Below, in pieces: positions 11,800 to 39,002 of a stretch of DNA of 64,000 nucleotides. Source of the stretch: Polyangiaceae bacterium. Its GTDB lineage: Bacteria > Myxococcota_A > Polyangia > Polyangiales > Polyangiaceae. Under the pieces are notes generated by a model. That model was not told the DNA's origin. It did no database searches and was given only the letters and a program-made list of their open reading frames with translations. The stretch lies in assembly GCA_019637265.1 (NCBI GenBank), contig JAHBVY010000001.1:1488001-1552000 (forward strand). The letters are read 5' to 3'. A program made the position numbers and the translations under genes. Numbering within the stretch: position 1 is the first letter of the stretch; every line of letters starts with the position of its first letter.

Positions 11800-11920
11800 C
11801 CACGCGGGTCACGCGACGCCGGGCAGGGCCAGCGCCGTTTCGGGGGCGGCGCGCGCCTGACGCTGCGAGCCTGAGTTGTGAGCCCGAGGGGTGCTCTGGG
11901 TGTATAACCCCTGCCCCCGG

Positions 11921-13150
11921 ATGGATGAGCTACCGGAACGCATCGGCCGCTATCAAATCGTCCGCCCGCTGGCGAGCGGGGCGATGGGCCGCGTGTTGCT
12001 GGCGCACGATCCGGTGCTCGATCGCCCCGTGGCGATCAAGCTGCTGCGCAGCGACTTGGGCCTGACCCCTGACCAACGCGCGACGCTGCTCGAGCGGATG
12101 CAGCAAGAGGCGCGCGCCTCCGCGCGGGTGACCCACCCCAACATCGTGGCGCTGCACGACATGGGCGAGGCCGAGGGGCTGGGGCTCTACCTGGTGTTCG
12201 AGCACGTGGAGGGGAAGAACCTGAAGGAGCAGCTCGAGCAGGGGCCGCTGGGGCCCGACGCCGCGGCAGAGCTGGCGCTGGGGCTCGGCGCGGCGCTCGC
12301 GGCGGCCCACGCGGCGGGCGTGCTCCACCGGGACATCAAGCCCGAGAACATCATCCTGGCGAAGCACGGACCCAAGCTGGTGGACTTCGGGATCGCCAGG
12401 TTGCCTGACTCCACCCTCACCCACGAGGGCGGGGTGTTGGGGACGCCGGCCTACGCGGCGCCCGAGGCGATCGCCAATGGTAAGTTCACGCCGCTGTCCG
12501 ATCAGTTCTCGCTCGCCACCACGCTGTACGAGGCGATCAGCGGGCGCCGCGCCTTCCCTGGGGATGACGCCGTGGCGGTGGCGAGCCGCATCGCCACCGA
12601 GGAGCCGCCGACCATCGCCGCGGTGTGCGGTCTCGACCCGCACGTGGACACCGTGCTCGCCCGCGGGATGAGCAAGGTGCCGCGCTCCCGCTTCGATTCC
12701 ACGGAAGATCTGGGCCGCGCCCTGGCGGAGGCGCTGCGCCTCTTGCCGCGCACCGCCATCCCGACCGCCCCCGATCGTCTCCACGTGGAAAAAGCCGCGG
12801 GCCGCGGCTTGAGGGTGGGGGTTGGGGTCGTCGCTGGGGGCGCGGTGATCGCCCTGGGCCTGCTCCAGGTGAGCGGTGAGCTGAGCTCCAGGGAGCTCAC
12901 CACCGCGAGCGCCAGCGCCCCGGTGGCCATCGTCACCGCGGCCCCCGAGAGCCCCGACCAACCCGTGGCGGTGCTGGCCGAGCGCCCCCCGGATCGCAAG
13001 AAGCGCCCGAAGACGCGGATCAAGCGCACCGACGGCAGCAGCGCCGCGCTGGACGGCGGCGTGGAGCCCGAAGCAGGTGCCCCCGCCGCCAAGGCTCCCA
13101 GCCCCGAAGGCTCCGCGGCTCCCCCCGCCCCTGCAGCGCCCGCACCGTGA
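11921..13150 (+). CDS. Ser/Thr protein kinase with C-terminal membrane helix
   Basis: The 409-aa protein has an N-terminal Hanks-type kinase domain (about 8-275): glycine loop ASGAMGRV, VAIK lysine, HRDIKPEN catalytic loop, DFG (VDFGIAR), and GTPAYAAPE. A helix at about 299-316 (GVGVVAGGAVIALGLLQV) anchors it in the inner membrane. An exported tail of about 90 residues rich in Ala, Pro and Lys follows, without a recognisable sensor domain. I chose the ATG at 11921 since MDELPERIGRYQI is the usual kinase start. TATAAC lies 12 nt upstream. Substrates are unknown. Confidence 0.93.
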   Translation: MDELPERIGRYQIVRPLASGAMGRVLLAHDPVLDRPVAIKLLRSDLGLTPDQRATLLERMQQEARASARVTHPNIVALHDMGEAEGLGLYLVFEHVEGKNLKEQLEQGPLGPDAAAELALGLGAALAAAHAAGVLHRDIKPENIILAKHGPKLVDFGIARLPDSTLTHEGGVLGTPAYAAPEAIANGKFTPLSDQFSLATTLYEAISGRRAFPGDDAVAVASRIATEEPPTIAAVCGLDPHVDTVLARGMSKVPRSRFDSTEDLGRALAEALRLLPRTAIPTAPDRLHVEKAAGRGLRVGVGVVAGGAVIALGLLQVSGELSSRELTTASASAPVAIVTAAPESPDQPVAVLAERPPDRKKRPKTRIKRTDGSSAALDGGVEPEAGAPAAKAPSPEGSAAPPAPAAPAP

Positions 13151-19637: not shown

Positions 19638-20288
19638 ATGCCAACGCGGCGCCGCAGAGGACGCTGGGGGTGGGGCCTCGCTGTGGTCACCGCCTCCACC
19701 TCCGCGTGGGCCGAAGAGCCGAGGCGTCAACCCCTGCCCGCCTCGCACTACGTGCAATACGGCGTGGGGATGACCACCGAGGCGCTGGCCCACGGGGGTG
19801 ACGTGTGCCCGCCCAGCTCACGCACGCCGTGCATCCTCGGCTCGGGCTTGGGGCTCGCGATCCGCACGGGCTATCGCGCGCGCGGCCCATGGTACGTGGG
19901 CGGTGCGTACGAGTTCTCGCGGCAAGATCCTGCCAACCTGATGCGCTTGGCGATCTTGCAGCAGCTGCGCGCGGAGACCCGCTACTACACGGCGCCGCTC
20001 GCGCGGCTCAGCCCTTACCTCACGGGGGGGCTCGGGATGGCGCTCTACGGCAATGAGTTCGGGAGCGACACCGGCGGCGTGACCACCTTCGTCGGCGCGG
20101 GGCTCGAGCTGCAGCTGAACCGCACCACGGTGGTGGGCGGCAGTCTGGTCTACCGGCCCCTGTTGCTACGGGGCTGGACGGACTCGGCGAGTCAGCGACG
20201 CGCCGATCGCTACCTCGGCTTCGGCCTGACCCACCTGGTGGGCCTGGAGCTGACGCTGGAGCTCCGGGGCCCGCTCGGCCGCTGGTGA
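19638..20288 (+). CDS. Outer-membrane beta-barrel-like protein
   Basis: The 216-aa product has a signal peptide (RGRWGWGLAVVTASTSAWA, cleavage after AWA). Amphipathic alternating strands such as YVQYGVGM, GLGLAIRTGYR, WYVGGAYEF, SPYLTGGLGMALYG, TFVGAGLELQL and VGGSLVYRPLLL follow, ending in a strand-rich C-terminus with a terminal aromatic Trp. This fits an 8- to 10-strand OmpA-like or OmpW-like barrel. Substrate or role is unknown. It diverges from the acidic-tail gene. Confidence 0.7.
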   Translation: MPTRRRRGRWGWGLAVVTASTSAWAEEPRRQPLPASHYVQYGVGMTTEALAHGGDVCPPSSRTPCILGSGLGLAIRTGYRARGPWYVGGAYEFSRQDPANLMRLAILQQLRAETRYYTAPLARLSPYLTGGLGMALYGNEFGSDTGGVTTFVGAGLELQLNRTTVVGGSLVYRPLLLRGWTDSASQRRADRYLGFGLTHLVGLELTLELRGPLGRW

Positions 20289-20345: not shown

Positions 20346-21662
20346 GTGAGGTGTGACCGGTGTGGGCGGGAGAACCCGGACCATGTGACGTTCTGCATGG
20401 ACTGCGGCCATCGCCTGAAGGCGGCGCCGGCCCCCGTGCATGGAGAGCCTGGCGCGCCGAGCGGCACCGCCTTCTTGGTGGACGCTCCACCTCCATCTCA
20501 GGCCTCGCGCCCGATGGCGCCTGACTTCGAGTTCGCGCCGCGCGCGGCGGAGAGCGCCTGCGGGCGATGCGGTACGCGGAACCCCAGCTCGAACCGCTAC
20601 TGCCAGGCCTGCGGCGAGACGGTGGGCGCGCCCGCCAACGCGCCGGTGGCGAGCCTCGCGACGAGCCCATGCCCACGCTGTCAGCAGCCGAACGACGCGG
20701 GCATGCGCTACTGCAAGCACTGCGGCGCGGCGCTCGGCCCCGAGCAGGGCGAGGCGAGTCGGGATCCGAGCGAGGCGCTGTCCCGCCCCGCCCCCGCGAC
20801 TCAAGCCTCGCTCCACGCTCCCCCGGCGCCGCCCTACCCTGCGCCGCTCGAGCACCCGCCGCTGCAGTACGTGGCCGCCGCACAGCCCGCCTCCCAGGCA
20901 GCCGTTTCACAGCAGCCAGCGCCCGCCACCGTCCCCCAGCCCGGCGTCGTGCGCGCGAGCGGGGCGCCGCCGAGTGAGCAGCCAGCACCAGTGGCGCGCG
21001 GCAAGCTGGTCGTCATCTCCCAGGACGGCAGCCCCGGTCGCGAGTACCCCATCTACGACGATCAGGTCGATATCGGCCGCCAAGAGGGGACCATCGTGCT
21101 GCCCAACGACCCCTACGTGTCGCCGCGGCACGCGCGGGTCCTGCTCCGGGACGGCCGCTACTACATCCGTGACCTGGGGTCGCTGAACGGCGTGTTCGTT
21201 CGCCTCACCCGTACGGAGCCGCTGCGAAATGGCGACTTGCTCTTGGTCGGGCTGGAGGTGTTAAGGTTCGAGGTGGTGAGCGAGGCAGAGGCAGGGCTGG
21301 GCCAAGCCATCGAGCGGGGGACCCAGGTGTTCGGCTCGCCGATCGCGCCCCGGTTTGCCCGCCTGAGCCAGCGAACGGTGGAGGGGGTGACCCGCGACGT
21401 GTATCACCTCACCCGCGACCAGACGGTGATCGGACGCGAGGCAGGTGATATCGTCTTCACCGCGGACCCCTTCATGAGCCGCCGCCACGCCGGCATCACT
21501 CGTGACCCCTCGGGCCGTGACTTCAGCCTACGTGACTTAGGATCGTCGAACGGCACTTACCTCGCCATCCGGGGAGAGCAGTCGCTCTCGGATGGAGACC
21601 ACGTCCGCATCGGACAACACCTATTTCGTCTGGAGACGGACCGGGCCACCAAGCTGATATGA
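20346..21662 (+). CDS. Zinc-ribbon protein with two FHA domains
   Basis: The 438-aa cytoplasmic protein starts with three CXXC-X10-CXXC zinc ribbons (Cys 3/6/17/20, 72/75/86/89 and 109/112/123/126), separated by Ala/Pro linkers. Two FHA domains follow, which bind phosphothreonine. FHA-1 (about 218-300) has IGRQEG, SPRHARV and DLGSLNGVFV. FHA-2 (about 345-435) has IGREAGD, SRRHAGI and DLGSSNGTYL. Arg, Ser and His of the GR/SxxH core are kept in both. It probably reads Ser/Thr kinase output. The GTG start is fixed by the first zinc ribbon, and the stop overlaps the PP2C start, so sensor and phosphatase are cotranslated. Confidence 0.92.
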   Translation: MRCDRCGRENPDHVTFCMDCGHRLKAAPAPVHGEPGAPSGTAFLVDAPPPSQASRPMAPDFEFAPRAAESACGRCGTRNPSSNRYCQACGETVGAPANAPVASLATSPCPRCQQPNDAGMRYCKHCGAALGPEQGEASRDPSEALSRPAPATQASLHAPPAPPYPAPLEHPPLQYVAAAQPASQAAVSQQPAPATVPQPGVVRASGAPPSEQPAPVARGKLVVISQDGSPGREYPIYDDQVDIGRQEGTIVLPNDPYVSPRHARVLLRDGRYYIRDLGSLNGVFVRLTRTEPLRNGDLLLVGLEVLRFEVVSEAEAGLGQAIERGTQVFGSPIAPRFARLSQRTVEGVTRDVYHLTRDQTVIGREAGDIVFTADPFMSRRHAGITRDPSGRDFSLRDLGSSNGTYLAIRGEQSLSDGDHVRIGQHLFRLETDRATKLI

Positions 21663-22852
21663 GCGACCACGGCGAAAGAGCGCAGGGCGAGATCCGCATC
21701 CACCTCTTCGGGCGCACGGATGTAGGTCAGATCCGCGAGCACAACGAGGACAACTTCCTGGTCGCCGATCTGACCCGCAGGAGCCGCAGCCTGATGGAGG
21801 CGGACCGGCACCAGGTCGTCGCGGAGCGCGGCACCGTGCTCGCGGTGTGCGACGGGATGGGCGGCGCGGCGGCGGGCGAGGTCGCCAGCCAGATGGCGGT
21901 CGACATCATCTACGAGAAGCTCGCCGAGGGCGACGCACCGACGGATCGGGACGACCTGGCGCGGCGCCTGGTGCGCGCCGTGGAGGAGGCCGGCCAGCGC
22001 ATCTTCAGCGAAGCGCGCGCCGACCGCAGCCGCCGCGGGATGGGCACCACCGCGACGGTGGCCGCGCTGATCGACTCGCGGCTGTTCATGGGTCAGGTGG
22101 GTGACAGCCGCGCCTACATCCTCCGCAACAACCGGCTCACCCAGGTGACCCGCGACCAGAGCCTGGTCAACCAGCTGATCGAGGCAGGGCAGCTGACGGA
22201 GGAGGAGGCGGAGACCTTCGAGCACAACAACATCATCCTGCAGGCGCTCGGCACCGCGGACTCCGTCCAGGTGGATCTCACCTACGCGGATCTGCGTCAG
22301 GGCGACGTACTGATGGTGTGCTCCGACGGGCTCAGCGGGATGCTGCGGGCGGACGACATCCGGGAGATCTTGGTCAGCCACCCTGATCCACTCGAGGCCT
22401 GCAAGGTCCTGACGGATCGCGCGAACCTGGCGGGCGGCCACGACAACATCACGGTGATCGTGGCGCGCTTCGAGGGTGACCTGCCCGAGCCAGGCCCGGA
22501 CGAGACCCTCGCCTACACCAAGTACGCCATCAGCAACCTGCCCAGCGCGGACGCCACCGTGCGCGCGGCGCCCATCCACGATCCGGACAGCGCCGAGCTG
22601 AGCGAGGAGGCGGCGCGCGAGTCACGGCGGCTGCGGGTCTCGCACACCATGGTCGGGGGGCTGGACTCCGCGGCGCTCCAGGCCGCGGTGCAGGCGCGCA
22701 CGTCCGACTCGAACACCCCGCCTCGCTACGACCCGAGCACCGATCCAATCGACATCCCCACCACCGGGCTGCCCCCGGCGGTGGTCGGGCTGCTGGTCTT
22801 GGGCGCGCTGTGCGTGGCGGCGATCGCGGGCGGGATCTTGGCGCTCAGTTGA
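21659..22852 (+). CDS. PP2C-family Ser/Thr phosphatase with C-terminal membrane helix
   Basis: The 397-aa protein has a PPM/PP2C catalytic domain (about 15-275): TDVGQIREHNEDN, LAVCDGMGG, GTTATVAALI, GQVGDSRAYI, VCSDGLSGML and GGHDNITVI. These carry the acidic residues for the two metal ions. An acidic/Ala linker of about 90 residues leads to a single helix at about 373-394, so the enzyme is tethered to the inner membrane with its active site in the cytoplasm. It is the natural opponent of the Ser/Thr kinases at 11.9 and 36.9 kb. It overlaps the FHA gene and lies 1 bp from the next gene. Confidence 0.95.
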   Translation: MSDHGERAQGEIRIHLFGRTDVGQIREHNEDNFLVADLTRRSRSLMEADRHQVVAERGTVLAVCDGMGGAAAGEVASQMAVDIIYEKLAEGDAPTDRDDLARRLVRAVEEAGQRIFSEARADRSRRGMGTTATVAALIDSRLFMGQVGDSRAYILRNNRLTQVTRDQSLVNQLIEAGQLTEEEAETFEHNNIILQALGTADSVQVDLTYADLRQGDVLMVCSDGLSGMLRADDIREILVSHPDPLEACKVLTDRANLAGGHDNITVIVARFEGDLPEPGPDETLAYTKYAISNLPSADATVRAAPIHDPDSAELSEEAARESRRLRVSHTMVGGLDSAALQAAVQARTSDSNTPPRYDPSTDPIDIPTTGLPPAVVGLLVLGALCVAAIAGGILALS

Positions 22853-22853
22853 C

Positions 22854-24263
22854 ATGCGCCGAGCGCTGCGGCGGGTCCTCTGGATCATCCCGACGCTGTT
22901 CGCCCTGAGCCTGCTCGGCTTCTGGGGCGTCACCTCGTCGCTCGGCACCACCGAGGGCCAGGCGCGCTTCTTCAACCCGCGCCCGGTGCATTTGGGTCAG
23001 CTCGCGGAGCGCGCCATGCGGCGCGTCGCGGCGGGCGGCGCTGACGCCGAGGCCGCCGCGGCGGAGCTGGTGGTCCTCGGCGGCGCGGCGCTGCCCACCG
23101 TGCTCCCGCTGCTCGACACCCTGAGCCCCACGGAGCGCGCCCGGGTGGCCGTGGCGCTGAAGCCGCTCGGTGAGCGCATGGGGGTTGGTGAGCCGGACGA
23201 ACTGAGTGACCCGGAGCAGGCGGTGCTGTTCTGGACGCGGCTGTGGCAAGATCGCGCGCTCGACTTCCGTGAGCAGGTCGCGGCGCGCGCCGTGAGCCGC
23301 CTGGCGCTGAAGGGCTCCGCGCTGCGCGAGGGCGACGTGATCGCGCTCGACACCTTCGCGCTGCCGGAGCTGATGCGTCAGCTCGGCGATCCCGCGGCGC
23401 GCGAGCTACCGAGCGACGAGCGCGTCGCGCGCACCGAGCGCCTGACCGCGGCCCTGGCGCACATCACTGGGCTCGGCTGGGAGCTGCCGAGCGACCGCGC
23501 GGAGGCGACCGAAGCGCGGGCGGACGCGCTGGCTGACGACTACGAGCGGTGGTGGCGCCAGAGCCGCGCGCGCTTCACGCCGCGGGAAGGCGGGGAGCGG
23601 CTGGTGGCCATGGTGCGCGACACGCAGTACGGCGACTGGCTCGTCGCCACCGTCTTCGATCGGTCAGAACATCTGACGTCAGAGCTCCGCGCCGCCTCGG
23701 CGCCGACGCTCAGCTTGGGGCTGATGGGGCTCGCGGGCGCGGCGGCGCTCTCGCTCGCGGCGCTGCTCCTCGCTCCCGCGAGGCCACTCGGCTGGCACTG
23801 GCTCGCGATCTCGGCGCTGCCGCTGATGGGGGTGGCGGCGCTCGGCTCCTCGGAGCGCGTCGCGGCCGCGCTCATGGCGCTGTACGGCGCGCTGCGCGCC
23901 TTCTTGGTCACCCGTCAGGCGGCCGCGGCTCACCTGCCCCGCGACGCCCCGCGCCTCGAGGCCGCGCTGGGCCTACCCCCGTGGCGTCGGCTCCTGCGCC
24001 GCGCGCGCGCGGGCGTCAGCTACCTGACGGCCGATCTCCCGACGGCGCTCCCGGGCTGGCTCTCCGCCTGCCTCGTGATCGAGCTCGGGACCGGGCGGCC
24101 AGGGCTCGCCGCGCGCACCCTGGAGGCCGTCAGTCAACGTGACGTCGGCTGGATGATGTGGCTGCTCTTGGCGCTCACCACCGTGGTGTGCCTCGCGCAA
24201 ATCATCAGTGACGCTGTCCTGGGTCGCCTCGACCCCAGGCTCGGCGCGGAGGAGGAGCCGTGA
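22854..24263 (+). CDS. Divergent DppB-like permease with large soluble insert
   Basis: The 469-aa membrane protein starts like an oligopeptide ABC permease of the DppB type (RRVLWIIPTLFALSLLGFW, helix 8-28) and ends like one (IISDAVLGRLDPRLG). Between the first helix and the next cluster (from about 285) sits a roughly 250-residue Glu/Arg/Ala-rich helical insert not found in DppB. Five or more helices follow. The EAA loop that contacts an ATPase is not obvious. With the next gene it forms a B/C-type pair, but no ATPase or solute-binding protein is nearby. It is coupled to PP2C by a 1-bp gap. Assignment rests on the ends and on the neighbour. Confidence 0.6.
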   Translation: MRRALRRVLWIIPTLFALSLLGFWGVTSSLGTTEGQARFFNPRPVHLGQLAERAMRRVAAGGADAEAAAAELVVLGGAALPTVLPLLDTLSPTERARVAVALKPLGERMGVGEPDELSDPEQAVLFWTRLWQDRALDFREQVAARAVSRLALKGSALREGDVIALDTFALPELMRQLGDPAARELPSDERVARTERLTAALAHITGLGWELPSDRAEATEARADALADDYERWWRQSRARFTPREGGERLVAMVRDTQYGDWLVATVFDRSEHLTSELRAASAPTLSLGLMGLAGAAALSLAALLLAPARPLGWHWLAISALPLMGVAALGSSERVAAALMALYGALRAFLVTRQAAAAHLPRDAPRLEAALGLPPWRRLLRRARAGVSYLTADLPTALPGWLSACLVIELGTGRPGLAARTLEAVSQRDVGWMMWLLLALTTVVCLAQIISDAVLGRLDPRLGAEEEP

Positions 24264-24928
24264 GCCTGCGCGCCGCGGCGCTGTGCCTGGGGCTCGGCCT
24301 CATCGTCAGCTTGGGGAGCCTCGCGGGCGGCGGCTCACATCAGCCAAGCGCTGGGCCGCTCATGGTGACCGCGGCGGGCGCCGGCGCCTCGCTCATGAGC
24401 GTCGGTTTGGGGTTCGGCTTGGCGCTGCTCGGCGCCATCGGTCCGCCGCCCGGGGCGCGCCTGCTCAGGCGCTTGGTGGAGCTCTTCGGGGTGCTGCCGA
24501 CGCTGGTCAGCGCGCTGCTGGTGCTGATGTGGAGCCCCCACTTCCTCACGCTGCTCGGGCTGGTGGGTCTCTTCCGCAGCGTGCGCATCGCGCGCTCCCT
24601 GGCGGGTGAGCTCCGGCGCCTGTCACGCCAGCCGTTCGCCGAAGCTTCGCGCGCCCTGGGTGCGCCGCTCGGCCGCCGGGTTCGGCGCGATCTCCTGCCA
24701 GGGGTGCTGCCGCTCTTGGCGGCGGAGGCAGCGAGCGGCATCCTGTGGACCCTCGCCTTGGTGGTCAGCCTCGATCTCGCGGGCGCGTCGCTCCCTGGGC
24801 TCGATCTCACCCTGGGCACCAGCGGTACCAGCGGCGGCGCGCGCATCGCCTGGCTCGGCGGCGCGGCCCTGCTCAGCCTGGGCCTGCTCGGCGTGCTCCT
24901 CCGCGTGCGGCGCCCCGAGCAGGGCTGA
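24260..24928 (+). CDS. DppC-like inner-membrane permease domain
   Basis: The 222-aa protein has about five helices and the ABC-permease inner-membrane core: GLGFGLALLGAIG, LLRRLVELFGVLPTLVSALLVL, then LVGLFRSVRIARSLAGELRRLSRQPFAEASRALGA with the EAA-like loop, and RRDLLPGVLPLLAAEAASGI. This resembles the C-terminal half of DppC or OppC without the N-terminal segment. It overlaps the previous gene by 4 bp (GTGA) and ends the operon. The FASRALGA loop is kept, so contact with an ATPase encoded elsewhere is possible. Confidence 0.7.
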   Translation: MSLRAAALCLGLGLIVSLGSLAGGGSHQPSAGPLMVTAAGAGASLMSVGLGFGLALLGAIGPPPGARLLRRLVELFGVLPTLVSALLVLMWSPHFLTLLGLVGLFRSVRIARSLAGELRRLSRQPFAEASRALGAPLGRRVRRDLLPGVLPLLAAEAASGILWTLALVVSLDLAGASLPGLDLTLGTSGTSGGARIAWLGGAALLSLGLLGVLLRVRRPEQG

Positions 24929-25070: not shown

Positions 25071-25712
25071 ATGGCGCTGCGCGAAATCACTGAGCAAGAC
25101 TTCGAACGAGAGATCCTTCAGAGCGAGCTCCCCGTGCTGGTGGAGTTCGGCGCCGAGTGGTGCGGCCCGTGTAAGACGGTCGCCCCGGAGCTGGAGGCGG
25201 TCGCCGCCGAGCTCGAGGGGAAGGCGAAGGTCGTCACCGTCGACATCGACCGCAGCAAGATGCTGGCCCGCGCGATGGGGATCCAGTCGGTGCCCACCTT
25301 CGTCGTGTTCCACCAAGGGCAGCCGGTTGGCGGGCGCGCCGGCGCGCTACGCCGCGCCGAGCTGCGGGCGCTGCTCGAGCCGCTGCTCCCTCGCGCCGCG
25401 GGCGCGCTCAAGCCGGAGGAGGTCGCCGAGCTCCTGCGTCGCGGTCAGGTGAGCCTGGTCGACACCCGAGAGGCCGCCGTCTACGCCCGCGCGCACCTGC
25501 CGGGCGCGACGCACCTCCCGGAGGACGAGATCGAGGGGCGCCTGGCGGAGCTCCACATGCTGCCGGGTGAGCCGGTGATCTATTGCCGGAGCGGCGACAA
25601 GACGAAGGAGCTCGCCGACAAGCTCGCGCAGCAAGGGGTGCCCGTCTCCTTCCTGGAGGGCGGCGTCCTGGGGTGGGAGGCGGTGGGCTTCGAGCTCGAG
25701 CGCCCCGATTGA
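25071..25712 (+). CDS. Thioredoxin-rhodanese fusion protein
   Basis: The 213-aa product starts at ATG 25071 (MALREITEQDF). Residues 1-105 form a thioredoxin domain with WCGPC (Cys31/Cys34) and the cis-Pro segment SVPTFVVF. Residues about 115-213 form a rhodanese domain with VSLVDTREAAVYARAHLPGATHLP and active-site Cys172 in YCRSGDKTKE. The fusion suggests reduction of a persulfide or sulfur-transfer intermediate by the adjoining CGPC pair. No signal peptide is seen, so it is cytoplasmic. TCTAAA lies 9 nt upstream as a possible -10 box, and no Shine-Dalgarno is seen. Confidence 0.93.
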   Translation: MALREITEQDFEREILQSELPVLVEFGAEWCGPCKTVAPELEAVAAELEGKAKVVTVDIDRSKMLARAMGIQSVPTFVVFHQGQPVGGRAGALRRAELRALLEPLLPRAAGALKPEEVAELLRRGQVSLVDTREAAVYARAHLPGATHLPEDEIEGRLAELHMLPGEPVIYCRSGDKTKELADKLAQQGVPVSFLEGGVLGWEAVGFELERPD

Positions 25713-25828: not shown

Positions 25829-27460
25829 TCACGGCGCCGTGAGCGCGCGCGCCGCGCCGAGCGCCTCCGCGATCACCTCGCGCACGCTCACCCCCGCCGC
25901 CGCCGCCAGGCGCCGACAATCCTCGAACTCTGGCTTGATCTGCGGCGCCCCGAACGGCCCCTCACCGATCTTCACCCCCACCTCGCCGTAGCGCGTCGTC
26001 ACGCGCTCGGCGCGCCGGGGGCGCTCCACCCGAGAGGCGCCGCGCCGGCGCACCCCGAGCGTGCTCGTCTCACGGATCAAGGCGGCGCTCACCCGATCGG
26101 CCAGCGCCGGCCGCGCCAGCGCCGCGATCACCCAACCGGGGCGCCCCTTCTTCATCGTCACCGCCGTGATCCACGCGTCGAGCGCGCCCGCCGCGAGCAG
26201 CTGCTCGAGCGCGTGCCCCGCGAGCTCCCCGGTGAGATCGTCCACGTTCGCCTCGATCAGCTCGACCGCGTGCTCCGCTTCAGCCTCCGCGCGCTCGAGC
26301 AACACCGCGCGCAGCGCGTTCGGACGATCCGTGAGCTCCCGCGTGCCCGCGCCCCAGCCACTCCGTAGCGGCGTGCCGCCGGGCCAACCGCGCACCGGCC
26401 GCGCCGTCGCCGCGACCAGCGCCGCGCCGGTGGGCGTCACCAGCTCGCCCTCGATACCCGCGTCCACCGTGTGAAACCCGCGGAGGCAAGTGAGCGTCGC
26501 CGGCGCCGGCAGCGGGATCCGCCCGTGCTGACACCGCACGAAGCCGCGTCCGAGCGGCAGCGGCGTGACCCAAACCTCGGCGCCCAGGTGCTCGAAGCAG
26601 GCGCTGGCGCCGACGATGTCGACGATGGAGTCCACCGCGCCCACCTCGTGGAAATGCACGTCCGCCACCGCCACCCGATGCGCGGCGGCCTCCGCCTCCG
26701 CCAAGATCCGAAACGCGCGCTGCGCCCGCGCCTTCACCGGCGGCGCGAGCTCGCTCGCCTCGAGCAGCTCGGTGATCTGAGCGTAGCTGCGCGCGGGCTG
26801 CGCGCTCTTCACCACCACCTCGAAGTGGGTCGCGCCCAACACACCGACCAGCACCGGCCGCGCGCGGAGCTCGTAGCCGCTGAGCGGGAGCGCACTGACC
26901 GCGCGCTCCACCACCGAGAGCGGCACCCCGAGGTCCACCAGCGCGGCGATCGTCATGTCGCCGGCGATGCCGCTCGCGGTATCCAGCAGGAGCAGCTTGC
27001 CGCGCCCTGCGCCCGCCTCGAGCGACGCGCGGTGCTGCTCGGCGTCTCCAGGCTGAAAACGGATCGCGAAATCGTGCGCATGGCCGTGCTCATGGCTGTG
27101 CGTGTGACTGTGGTCATGGCCATGCGCGTGCTCGTGGCCATGGTCATGACGGTGCGCGTGGCCAGCGTAGCTGTCTTCATGGTCATGCGCGTGCTCATGG
27201 CTGTGCTCGTGGTCGTGCGCGTCGTCATGGCTGTGCGCGTGCTCGTGGCTGTGCGCTCGGGGCGGTGCCGTCCAACCCCCCGACCCGCGCTCATGCTCAT
27301 GGCTGTGACTATGGTCAGTGTGGCTGTCCGCAGCGCCCTGCACGTGACTGTGACCCTGAGCCTGGTCAGTATGACTGTCCGCAGCGCCCTGCACGGGACC
27401 GTGCGCAGGGTCAGCGTGGCTGTGCTCATCCCCCGCGCCGGGCGGCGCCGAAGGCCTCAC
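25829..27460 (-). CDS. larC: Nickel insertase LarC with His-rich N-terminal extension
   Basis: LarC inserts nickel into the pyridinium bisthiocarboxylate mononucleotide, the last step of the nickel-pincer cofactor. The conserved domain starts near residue 155 (KLLLLDTASGIAGDMTIAALVDLG). It continues with HFHEVGAVDSIVDIVGA, CQHGRIPLPAPATL, TPTGAALVA, IEANVDDLTGE and MKKGRPG. Before it lies an extension with 38 His in residues 13-129, mostly HxH and HDH patterns, that could bind Ni. An in-frame copy of the dispersed repeat codes SGGWTAP (about 60-66). I chose the GTG at 27460 because it overlaps the larB stop (GTGA) and no closer conserved start exists. The 543-aa product is longer than typical LarC. 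Confidence 0.93.
   Translation of the reverse strand: MRPSAPPGAGDEHSHADPAHGPVQGAADSHTDQAQGHSHVQGAADSHTDHSHSHEHERGSGGWTAPPRAHSHEHAHSHDDAHDHEHSHEHAHDHEDSYAGHAHRHDHGHEHAHGHDHSHTHSHEHGHAHDFAIRFQPGDAEQHRASLEAGAGRGKLLLLDTASGIAGDMTIAALVDLGVPLSVVERAVSALPLSGYELRARPVLVGVLGATHFEVVVKSAQPARSYAQITELLEASELAPPVKARAQRAFRILAEAEAAAHRVAVADVHFHEVGAVDSIVDIVGASACFEHLGAEVWVTPLPLGRGFVRCQHGRIPLPAPATLTCLRGFHTVDAGIEGELVTPTGAALVAATARPVRGWPGGTPLRSGWGAGTRELTDRPNALRAVLLERAEAEAEHAVELIEANVDDLTGELAGHALEQLLAAGALDAWITAVTMKKGRPGWVIAALARPALADRVSAALIRETSTLGVRRRGASRVERPRRAERVTTRYGEVGVKIGEGPFGAPQIKPEFEDCRRLAAAAGVSVREVIAEALGAARALTAP
27262..27286 (-). repeat. Dispersed repeat inside the larC coding region
   Basis: GCGGTGCCGTCCAACCCCCC on the + strand lies inside the His-rich coding part of larC and is read in frame as GlyGlyTrpThrAlaPro. 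It matches the copy at 62591 base for base over 20 nt. Confidence 0.85.
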
Positions 27461-28224
27461 TGCGCCGCCCCTCGGAGGATGCGGAACGCCGCCAGCGCCG
27501 CGCCGAACCCGTTGTCGATGTTCACCACGGTGACCCCCGCGGCGCACCCCGTCAGCATCCCGAACAACGCCGTGAAGCCGGACAGCGCGGTGCCATACCC
27601 CACCGAGGTCGGCACCGCGATCACCGGCGCCGCGACCAGCCCGCCGACCACGCTGGAGAGCGCGCCCTCCATCCCGGCGATCACGATGACGACCGGCGCC
27701 GCGCGCAGCGTATCCAGGTGGCCCAGCACGCGATGGAGCCCCGCCACGCCCACGTCGTAGACGCGCTCCAGCGCCACCCCACAAGCGAGCAGCGTCTCCG
27801 CGGCCTCTTCAGCCACCGGCACATCGCTGGTCCCCGCCGTGACCACGCACACCGGCGCGTTACCGAGCGGCGTCACGTGGCGCGCCTCACTGACGAGCAC
27901 CCGCGCCGCCTCCTGATAGCGAAGCTCAGGCACCGCCTGACACACCAGCTCGGCCTTGGCCGCGTCCACCCGCGTGACGAGCACGTTACCCGTCCTCGCC
28001 AAGAGCGCCCGCGCGATCCCCACCACTTGCTCGGGGCTCTTCGACTCCCCCAGCACGACCTCGGGCATGCCTTGCCGAACCGCGCGGTGATGATCCACCA
28101 CGGCGTAACCGAGCTCCTCCACCGGCCACACCTCGAGCCGCTCGGTCGCGCTCTGGATCGACACCTCCCCCCGCTGTACGCCGAGGAGGAGCGCTCGCAA
28201 CGTTTCGGAATCCACCCTCGGCAT
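27457..28224 (-). CDS. larB: LarB, pyridinium-3,5-biscarboxylic acid mononucleotide synthase
   Basis: The 255-aa protein uses nicotinic acid adenine dinucleotide and CO2 to form the cofactor precursor P2CMN. It has a leading helix (ETLRALLLGVQRGEVSIQSATERL), DHHRAVRQGMPEVVLGESKSPEQVVGIA, and an AIRC (PurE-like) domain with VVTAGTSDVPVAEEAAETL, YDVGVAGLHR, VIAGMEGAL, VPTSVGYG and VNIDNGFGA. The ATG at 28224 gives the usual length; an ATG at 28284 is the alternative. Its stop overlaps larC. LarE and any LarA-type target enzyme are not in the window. Confidence 0.93.
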   Translation of the reverse strand: MPRVDSETLRALLLGVQRGEVSIQSATERLEVWPVEELGYAVVDHHRAVRQGMPEVVLGESKSPEQVVGIARALLARTGNVLVTRVDAAKAELVCQAVPELRYQEAARVLVSEARHVTPLGNAPVCVVTAGTSDVPVAEEAAETLLACGVALERVYDVGVAGLHRVLGHLDTLRAAPVVIVIAGMEGALSSVVGGLVAAPVIAVPTSVGYGTALSGFTALFGMLTGCAAGVTVVNIDNGFGAALAAFRILRGAAQ

Positions 28225-28297
28225 ATAGTCGAGATGCCGCGGGCTTCCCACCTCCCCGCGGAGGCGCGCGCGCTCACGCCACATCACCGGAGCTGCC

Positions 28298-28333
28298 TTG
28301 TGGCACCGAGAACCGGACGCTAGAACTCGGGCC
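28298..28333 (+). promoter_or_regulatory. Candidate leaderless promoter for the 28334 gene
   Basis: TTGTGG (28298-28303), a 17-nt spacer, TAGAAC (28321-28326), then 7 nt to the GTG at 28334. It overlaps the divergent larB 5' region. Confidence 0.5.
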
Positions 28334-28924
28334 GTGCCGGCGCTCCTCGGGCCCTTGGTTGGCTTCTGCCTCGGCGTCGCGTTCGCGTGGATCACCCTCA
28401 AGGCGGGCGATCACGACCGCGGCGCGCTGAGGTACCGCGGGCTCTTGGTGGTGAGCGGGTTCAGCGTGCTCGTCTACGCGCCGGTGACGGGCTACTTCCT
28501 GGCGTTCGCCGAGGACTGGGCCGTGGCGTACTGGTTCAACGCGGGGGAGCTCCCCGTAGCGGTGCCGCTCTTGTGGCTCACGCTCGACGTGTGCGCGCCG
28601 CCGCTCGGCTTCCTGCTCGCGATGCGCCCCGATCAAACGCGCACCCGCACCTTCCTCACCCTGGGCTCCGGCCCCGCGATCGCCGCGCTGGTGCTGTTCG
28701 TCGTGAGCGCCAAGCGCCTGCGCGTGTTCGGCACCTACCGTCAGTTCCACGAAGACTTCGGCGTCAACCAGGTGTGGGGCACCCAGCTCGGCTACGCGCT
28801 GGCTTGGATGCTCACCGCGCTCCTGGTAGGCGCCGCTTGGACCGCCCACGCGCTCACCCGCTTGCAGCCGCCGCAGCGAGCCATGCCCCCGCGTGAGCGC
28901 CGACCACGACCGAGCCTTGGCTAA
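28334..28924 (+). CDS. Hypothetical four-helix membrane protein
   Basis: The 196-aa protein has about four to five hydrophobic helices (LLGPLVGFCLGVAFAWI, LLVVSGFSVLVYAPVTGYFLAF, AVPLLWLTLDVCAPPLGFLLA, SGPAIAALVLFVVSA and LGYALAWMLTALLVGAAWTAHAL). The charged C-terminal tail has PPRERRPRP. I recognise no family. The GTG at 28334 is chosen since a TTGTGG-N17-TAGAAC element lies 7 nt before it. It is followed by pmbA on the same strand after 33 bp and may be cotranscribed. Confidence 0.65.
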   Translation: MPALLGPLVGFCLGVAFAWITLKAGDHDRGALRYRGLLVVSGFSVLVYAPVTGYFLAFAEDWAVAYWFNAGELPVAVPLLWLTLDVCAPPLGFLLAMRPDQTRTRTFLTLGSGPAIAALVLFVVSAKRLRVFGTYRQFHEDFGVNQVWGTQLGYALAWMLTALLVGAAWTAHALTRLQPPQRAMPPRERRPRPSLG

Positions 28925-36494: not shown

Positions 36495-36875
36495 CGCGCC
36501 TCCTCAGCGCTCGAGCGAGCGAGCACCGCACCCCGGGCGCTCGCCGCGTGCAAGCGCAGGCCCGCCCAGCGCGCGACGCGGCGCGACGAGCGGGGCGTCG
36601 CCTCCGAGAGGCACGCCGGGGGGGTCGGTGGATCAGCCGAGAACAAGGAGGCGAGAGCCTAGTACAGCGCCAGCCCGGGGCGGTGGATTCTGGAGCCGCT
36701 GGTTGCCACAACGCGCGCGCTCCGCGTACCCCCAAAACCCGCGTGAGCCACCGTCGGCTGCTGCTTCGATAGGTGGATCCCCAAGTAATCCACAGCCCAG
36801 GCGCCGCGCCGCTGGCGGCGGGCGAATCAACGCTCTAGTACAGGACCTGATGGCAGCGCGAGCGTCAGGGGCGTG
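36495..36875. other. Divergent intergenic region between scpA and kinase 2, with a repeat core
   Basis: The 381-bp gap holds no gene that I can support. It carries one dispersed-repeat core on the + strand (TACCCCCAAAACCC, 36727-36740) and presumably two divergent promoters. No convincing -35/-10 pair was found for scpA. Codon use in the open frames here looks random. Confidence 0.6.

Positions 36876-39002
<2,127 letters not shown>

Follow-up and report, generated by a model that had tools for sequence, protein, structure and literature searches.

Actinobacterial kinase clusters encode PP2C phosphatases of the Stp1/PstP type with FHA proteins of the FhaA/FhaB type as their neighbours. For the peptide importer DppABCDF of E. 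coli, PMC12136057 describes a flexible scoop of DppB (around residues 32-62), which binds inside the DppA cleft and closes off the cavity, as well as five DppB residues (D235, T239, K243, H254, and N258) that contact the ATPase DppD. The operon considered here is situated in a stretch of 64,000 nucleotides from a Polyangiaceae bacterium (contig JAHBVY010000001.1, positions 1,488,001 to 1,552,000; hereafter the window), the genome of which measures 5.7 Mb at a completeness of 98.5%. Its four genes (Table 1) encode an FHA protein, a PP2C phosphatase, and two permease-like proteins, here termed PermB and PermC. The reading we favour, to which we give about an even chance, is that PermB-PermC, descended from peptide-importer permeases, would constitute a membrane anchor/receptor or scaffold for a periplasmic domain, uncoupled from an ATPase.

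Both proteins exceed the curated cut-off of Pfam BPD_transp_1 (41.5 bits in PermB and 36.5 bits in PermC; cut-off 26.4). The AlphaFold2 model of PermB, built on an alignment of 28 rows (predicted local distance difference test, pLDDT, 89.4), matches solved OppB/DppB chains with Z values of 15.0-18.7 across 233-255 residues, and a sequence profile recovers four chains of DppB/OppB, all at 2.3e-34 or better. HMMER aligns the first transmembrane (TM) segment of E. coli DppB (TM1, residues 3-32) before the insert of PermB, and DppB from residue 65 onward after it. On this predicted fold, the descent of PermB from DppB can be considered firm. By profile membership and, in the case of PermB, by modelled fold, the pair belongs to the DppBC-type permeases; concerning ATPase contacts and operon partners it departs from them, with PermB of the window retaining one of the five ATPase-contact residues of the coupling loop, and with neither a binding protein nor ATPases, as a functional peptide importer would have, encoded in its operon. 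PermC, which an initial annotation of the window had called a DppC-like half, is indeed a short version of DppC (222 amino acids, aa), but it is not one half of a fusion.

The insert of PermB, put at roughly 250 aa in the initial annotation, comprises 233 aa as cut here (residues 36-268). Modelled alone on 36 rows, it is all-helical (pLDDT 94.3). Foldseek returned no match in the PDB at 0.001 or better, and the top VIA-align match (Z 6.5), which is found among partial HEAT/TOG/MIF4G-like matches, covers only 79 residues and does not imply kinship. The window insert matches no Pfam family at 0.1, the inserts of 36 members yield only stray Pfam matches (the top one 0.00038, in one member), a sequence search of the PDB gave nothing better than 0.25, and a search of plasmids gave no match. 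Since outgroup proteins (L155, for instance) still have a segment about as long as the scoop ahead of it, the insert seems to lie where the scoop ends and not to replace it. The Arg-rich N-terminus and the coupling loop of PermB point to a periplasmic location. By profile, the insert is present in 121 of 289 genomes of the class, namely, by our own count of kinship, in 84 of the 89 genomes of the window's family (its own included), in 15 others of the order, and in 22 of other orders; in a phylum-wide draw it was found in 47 of 377 genomes, every one inside the same class.

Relatives were compared at 43 named loci (e.g., of Polyangiaceae, Myxococcales, and Polyangia bacteria, of Polyangium, of Minicystis rosea, and of Sorangium cellulosum); their neighbouring genes were called by our own script and labelled by phmmer, and absences are therefore weaker than presences. 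Among 63 distinct insert-bearing rows, PP2C is situated immediately upstream of PermB in 26, often with an intergenic gap of a few bases, and in 9 with one or two FHA/trypsin-type genes in between; a divergent phosphoglucomutase gene lies at most three genes away in 16, and the remaining contexts are an amidase (3), an ABC-F gene (1), others (5), and contig ends (3). In a tree of the inserts, the phosphoglucomutase rows form one clade (20 rows; 97 by the Shimodaira-Hasegawa-like approximate likelihood ratio test, SH-aLRT) and the Polyangium-type rows another (14 rows; support 98), while the other PP2C-context rows, together with L108, make up a window-like group of 24. Most rows of the phosphoglucomutase clade possess a canonical core and no FHA or PP2C gene upstream. 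In a family termed f8, an N-acetylmuramoyl-L-alanine amidase is encoded directly 5' of PermB at all four loci (L074, L075, L076, L165; Pfam Amidase_3 in two of them). A further family, f6, contains an insert-bearing PermB-like protein at six loci (L077, L078, L166-L169), with no PermC match following; the f6 protein of L078, the only one scanned, has no BPD_transp_1 match.

The transport core differs strongly among these groups. In pairs at an insert identity of 0.35-0.55, core identity amounts to 0.261 in the window-like group (242 pairs), 0.390 in the Polyangium-type group (23), and 0.527 in the phosphoglucomutase clade (112). The median score against the DppB profile is 34 bits (24 rows), 104 bits (14), and 131 bits (20), respectively, with the contig-end fragments L124, L125, and L149 depressing the value of the phosphoglucomutase clade; these three are excluded from the count of contact residues. 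Out of the five ATPase-contact residues, window-like rows retain on average 0.71 (24 rows), Polyangium-type rows 2.21 (14), and phosphoglucomutase rows 4.35 (17), compared to 4.67 outside the order (12) and 4.57 in ordinary DppB (7); the mean is 3.00 in f8 and 1.17 in f6. When similar residues are counted as well, the values become 1.29, 4.21, 4.65, 4.75, and 4.57, such that the loss in the Polyangium-type group is mostly conservative, its mean rising from 2.21 to 4.21. The linker between TM1 and the insert, the length of which is based on hydropathy and has outliers (3-70 in window-like and 16-147 in Polyangium-type rows), has a median of 15 in the window-like group (23 of 24 rows), 30 in the Polyangium-type group (14 of 14), 32 in the phosphoglucomutase clade (14 of 17), 33 outside the order, and 20 in f8 (3 rows).

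The gene 3' of PermB has a median length of 232 aa in window-like rows (18), 334 aa in Polyangium-type rows (14), and 361 aa in phosphoglucomutase rows (15, two of which are not PermC); comparisons involving L134 or L055, where the gene in this position is not PermC, were not relied on. The Asn at the second contact site of PermC is present in none of 18 window-like, 10 of 14 Polyangium-type, 11 of 13 phosphoglucomutase, and all 7 ordinary DppC rows. The GTD and GRD motifs are each found in 1 of 18 window-like rows, in 13 and 11 of 14 Polyangium-type rows, and in all 13 phosphoglucomutase rows, a contrast which holds within the family only, as the combined pattern is missing in 7 Dpp1/Opp DppC rows. 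In window-like genera, the pair lacks the majority of the scoop and ATPase-contact residues as well as the N-terminal DppC motif of its relatives, whereas the extra domain is conserved.

A control used seven genomes, four of them window-like, and set window-like pairs (6) against other pairs (15, mostly cross-group). Identity was 0.626 vs 0.528 in DppB and 0.631 vs 0.396 in DppC of Dpp1, 0.455 vs 0.457 and 0.654 vs 0.619 in the lone ATPases, and 0.486 vs 0.375 in the PermB insert. The thioredoxin-rhodanese neighbour has an identity of 0.632 in the FHA-context group (11 rows) vs 0.604 in the phosphoglucomutase group (7), figures that rest on context groups in which L052, L053, and L056 (Polyangium clade) stand with the window-like rows. 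A drop like that of the window-like core is seen neither in Dpp1 nor in the lone ATPases nor in the thioredoxin-rhodanese protein. The ratio of nonsynonymous to synonymous substitution rates (dN/dS) is below 1 in all comparisons made, and PermB is therefore not a pseudogene; in two close window-like pairs it amounts to 0.115 and 0.114 in the insert, 0.246 and 0.130 in the core, and 0.055 and 0.046 in PP2C. The core is accordingly still under purifying selection, which in one pair is weaker than on the insert and in the other roughly the same. That the permease is dying, its constraint relaxed before loss and the insert outlasting the core by chance alone, as the low DppB-profile scores, the short PermC, and an ORF (open reading frame) of 709 aa without a Pfam match in L126 could suggest, is very improbable in view of these ratios and of the retention of the insert-bearing gene in nearly all searched genomes of the family.

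Concerning the operon itself, all four genes are found as ORFs where the initial annotation had placed them, overlapping or 1 bp apart: the FHA gene overlaps the PP2C gene by 4 bp (ATGA), a single base pair separates PP2C from PermB, and the PermB and PermC genes share 4 bp (GTGA). The three zinc ribbons and two FHA domains read from the letters agree with Pfam (three stretches of Zn_Ribbon_1, two of FHA). The phosphatase, described there as membrane-bound, matches Pfam PP2C_2 (3.7e-16), lies above the cut-off of NCBIfam Stp1_PP2C_phos (238.2 vs 230 bits), and has a single TM segment near its C-terminus (residues 378-396) in the hydropathy scan. As had also been said, the four-gene operon contains no gene for a kinase, an ATPase, or a binding protein.

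Of 15 loci fetched from outside the order, one had hardly any called genes. In all 14 usable ones PermC follows PermB, and in 12 an SBP-like gene (i.e., one for a substrate-binding protein) precedes, giving the order binding protein-DppB-DppC; the one such gene checked is confirmed as Pfam SBP_bac_5. At the examined loci of the family, no binding-protein gene adjoins PermB-PermC, the sole such call being SBP2 in L072, about 6 kb from PermB. Dpp-type ATPases, which in the neighbourhood of the permease genes would have spoken for a transporter, were not seen among the genes called at 103 loci, a set that contains duplicates and short contigs. ABC (ATP-binding cassette) genes adjoining PermB in L134, L140, and L146 were considered as partner ATPases and rejected, the ABC signature occurring more than once in each. 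We take these to be soluble ABC-F proteins. The proposal of the initial annotation that the pair is not a transporter thus receives comparative support in this lineage, where the core has decayed, the insert has not, and no Dpp ATPase accompanies it. For the phospho-signalled complex that it also proposed, the indication is gene order: PP2C lies directly upstream of PermB in the 26 rows and beyond FHA/trypsin genes in the 9 mentioned. PermB-PermC is not confined to this context, however, and outside the order stands behind an SBP_bac_5-type gene at 12 of 14 loci.

The comparison shows that PermB-PermC descends from the DppB/DppC pair of a peptide importer, the DppB of which had an additional helical domain next to its scoop. 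From such an importer with its binding protein, the series would lead to the window's family, in which the binding protein no longer adjoins; the permease pair would then have been joined to FHA-PP2C in part of the family, and finally ATPase coupling would have been lost in the window-like genera while the extra domain was retained. The direction of change along this series is inferred from the distribution of these states. PermB-PermC would no longer pump peptides but may hold the helical domain in the periplasm for the binding of a ligand or partner, and the amidase neighbour in f8 hints at the cell wall as a target of that domain. More tentatively, the pair might work with the co-encoded FHA reader and the membrane PP2C as a receptor or scaffold; gene order is what suggests this link to phospho-signalling. 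The most far-reaching version, in which a type I ABC importer permease pair turned within one family into an ATPase-free receptor, with the helical domain sensing a periplasmic ligand or the cell wall and signalling to PP2C and the FHA reader, we consider unlikely.

Several observations weigh against the favoured reading. The identity of the PermB core in the control is no lower in window-like pairs (0.286) than in the others, across groups (0.281), these two values also meaning that the core alone shows no within-group gain, and the dN/dS of the core is clearly above that of the insert in just one of the two close pairs. The counts of some window-like rows are lowered because these are fragments at contig ends or have gaps in the contact columns, and the groups derive from a quick tree that does not resolve the deep branches of the window-like rows. 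PermC is retained: it is among the called genes in 18 of the 24 window-like rows, and a profile adds L130, L143, and L051; L137 and L145 end at the contig edge, and L126 has no separate PermC. The His of the PermC coupling loop is kept in 12 of 18 window-like rows, although a mere anchor need not keep it. In the hydropathy scan, helix 69-87 of the insert is scored like a TM segment, which speaks against a simple soluble domain. L071, a member of the phosphoglucomutase clade, reaches only 39 bits against the DppB profile, and two scored f6 proteins reach 20 and 16 bits, so decay arose more than once; the linker is short in f8 as well, such that decay extends beyond the FHA/PP2C context. Conversely, the core of the Polyangium-type rows is near-canonical despite FHA-PP2C upstream, and hence the FHA-PP2C neighbourhood alone is not tied to decay. 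The link to FHA/PP2C is lineage-specific and could reflect co-transcription only, and the lone Dpp-type ATPase pair described below could still power PermB-PermC. As a separate observation, PermC may be fused to PermB in the 709-aa ORF of L126 (L126:8001-10130), judged by eye.

Among the alternatives, the one that survives best, though we think it somewhat doubtful, is that PermB-PermC and FHA-PP2C are unrelated neighbours, brought together perhaps by the loss of FHA/trypsin-type genes and sharing transcription alone. PP2C is a separate, order-wide gene, matched at 1e-50 in 37 of 39 genomes and frequently situated elsewhere in the genome than PermB. Among 16 regions with PP2C away from PermB, PP2C was called in 15, and FHA lies directly upstream in 13; an FHA/trypsin-like gene follows PP2C directly in 6 of the 15, all six in other families. 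In Polyangium, Minicystis, and Sorangium, PermBC comes after genes of this type, in one run with FHA-PP2C. The domain content of such genes (Pfam FHA and Trypsin_2) was confirmed in L181 and in one member of the Polyangium-type set, L057. Against mere neighbourhood stand the frequency of PP2C-PermB adjacency, often at gaps of few bases, and the concentration of marked core decay within the family in the PP2C-adjacent set, with L071 as the exception. Other genes are also found behind PP2C, namely a UvrA-like one in G009 (L178:2111-4633) and an ABC-F-like one in G013 (L179:7489-9057), and in G041 (L181:8879-10681) a protein with FHA, GAF, and guanylate cyclase domains is encoded after the FHA-PP2C-FHA/trypsin genes.

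A split ABC importer, in which PermB-PermC would still import peptides by means of a lone DppD-DppF pair, with a binding protein from elsewhere in the genome or the insert as receptor, is in our estimation rather unlikely. The window's own genome, G000, encodes one complete Opp operon and a single lone binding protein; in addition, it contains a DppC-SBP-DppB operon without ATPases (C1:540764-544210, L088) and a lone tandem pair of Dpp-type ATPases (C1:1728789-1730296, L091). Since these two occur together, ATPases in trans are likely in G000, where a peptide importer seems to be split already, and this keeps the alternative alive, as does the mostly canonical core of the phosphoglucomutase clade. 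However, window-like rows mostly lack the ATPase contacts and the scoop, yet the lone ATPases have not diverged alongside, and in a quick tree none of the three SBP_bac_5 proteins found in G000 groups with the operon SBPs of the outgroups. SBP2, the lone binding protein, was considered as the displaced partner and is not supported, as in the quick tree it belongs to a lineage separate from the outgroup operon SBP, and L161 possesses both.

Table 1. Features of the FHA-PP2C-PermBC operon and of its flanking genes in the window
Feature	Position	Strand	Basis
FHA protein, 438 aa, three zinc ribbons and two FHA domains	20346..21662	+	ORF list, Pfam
PP2C (Stp1-type) phosphatase, 397 aa, one C-terminal TM segment	21659..22852	+	Pfam, NCBIfam, hydropathy scan
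PermB, permease of DppB/OppB fold with helical insert, 469 aa	22854..24263	+	Pfam, structure model
PermB residues 36-268, all-helical insert at DppB scoop position	22959..23657	+	
PermB residues 352-390, degenerate EAA (ATPase-coupling) loop	23907..24023	+	
PermC, short DppC-like permease, 222 aa	24260..24928	+	Pfam
Thioredoxin-rhodanese protein, frequently encoded 3' of PermB-PermC within the family	25071..25712	+	
216-aa protein without Pfam match, common gene 5' of FHA-PP2C in the order	19638..20288	+	

Concerning the flanking genes, thioredoxin-rhodanese is found, by our reading of the gene calls, within two genes 3' of PermC (or of PermB where PermC was not called) at 24 of the 42 named loci with PermB, several others ending at a contig edge. 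In the window, as in many relatives, it is followed by LarC- and LarB-like genes (Ni_insertion, AIRC; 25829-28401, minus strand). Two Ser/Thr kinase genes are situated in the window on the plus strand, at 11891-13150 (Pkinase 2.5e-36; 7 kb 5' of the gene for the FHA protein) and at 36873-39002 (5.1e-40). They belong to 95 Pkinase matches genome-wide, none of which is linked to the FHA-PP2C-PermBC operon by the data of this analysis.

The comparison yields a graded natural series, from an SBP-DppB-DppC operon over mostly canonical permeases without an adjoining binding protein to permeases without ATPase contacts, with the extra helical domain as the constant element. It makes the repurposing of an ABC importer as a sensor or scaffold testable and would give a starting point for finding out what FHA-PP2C, a pair present across the order, may control. 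In the literature covered, to which most subscription journals do not belong, we found no account of an FHA-PP2C-PermBC operon or of the insert.

Equally to DppBCDF of E. coli and OppABCD of M. tuberculosis, PermB possesses the OppB/DppB fold, and the positions of TM1 and of the coupling loop match; it differs from them by the 233-aa helical insert at the scoop, by the loss of most contacts and of most of the scoop in the window-like group, and by an operon without binding protein and ATPase. With the Stp1/PstP clusters the window shares a gene order in which FHA directly precedes a PP2C that has a membrane segment, whereas its operon is kinase-free, its FHA protein carries zinc ribbons, and a permease pair follows. 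Among the matches listed, in the parts of the sources available, none of the transporter-derived sensors is a type I ABC importer permease pair; if our reading is right, PermB-PermC would nevertheless resemble such sensors (CbrA and the yeast transceptors, according to the same parts of the sources) in that the fold of a transport protein is used in sensing.

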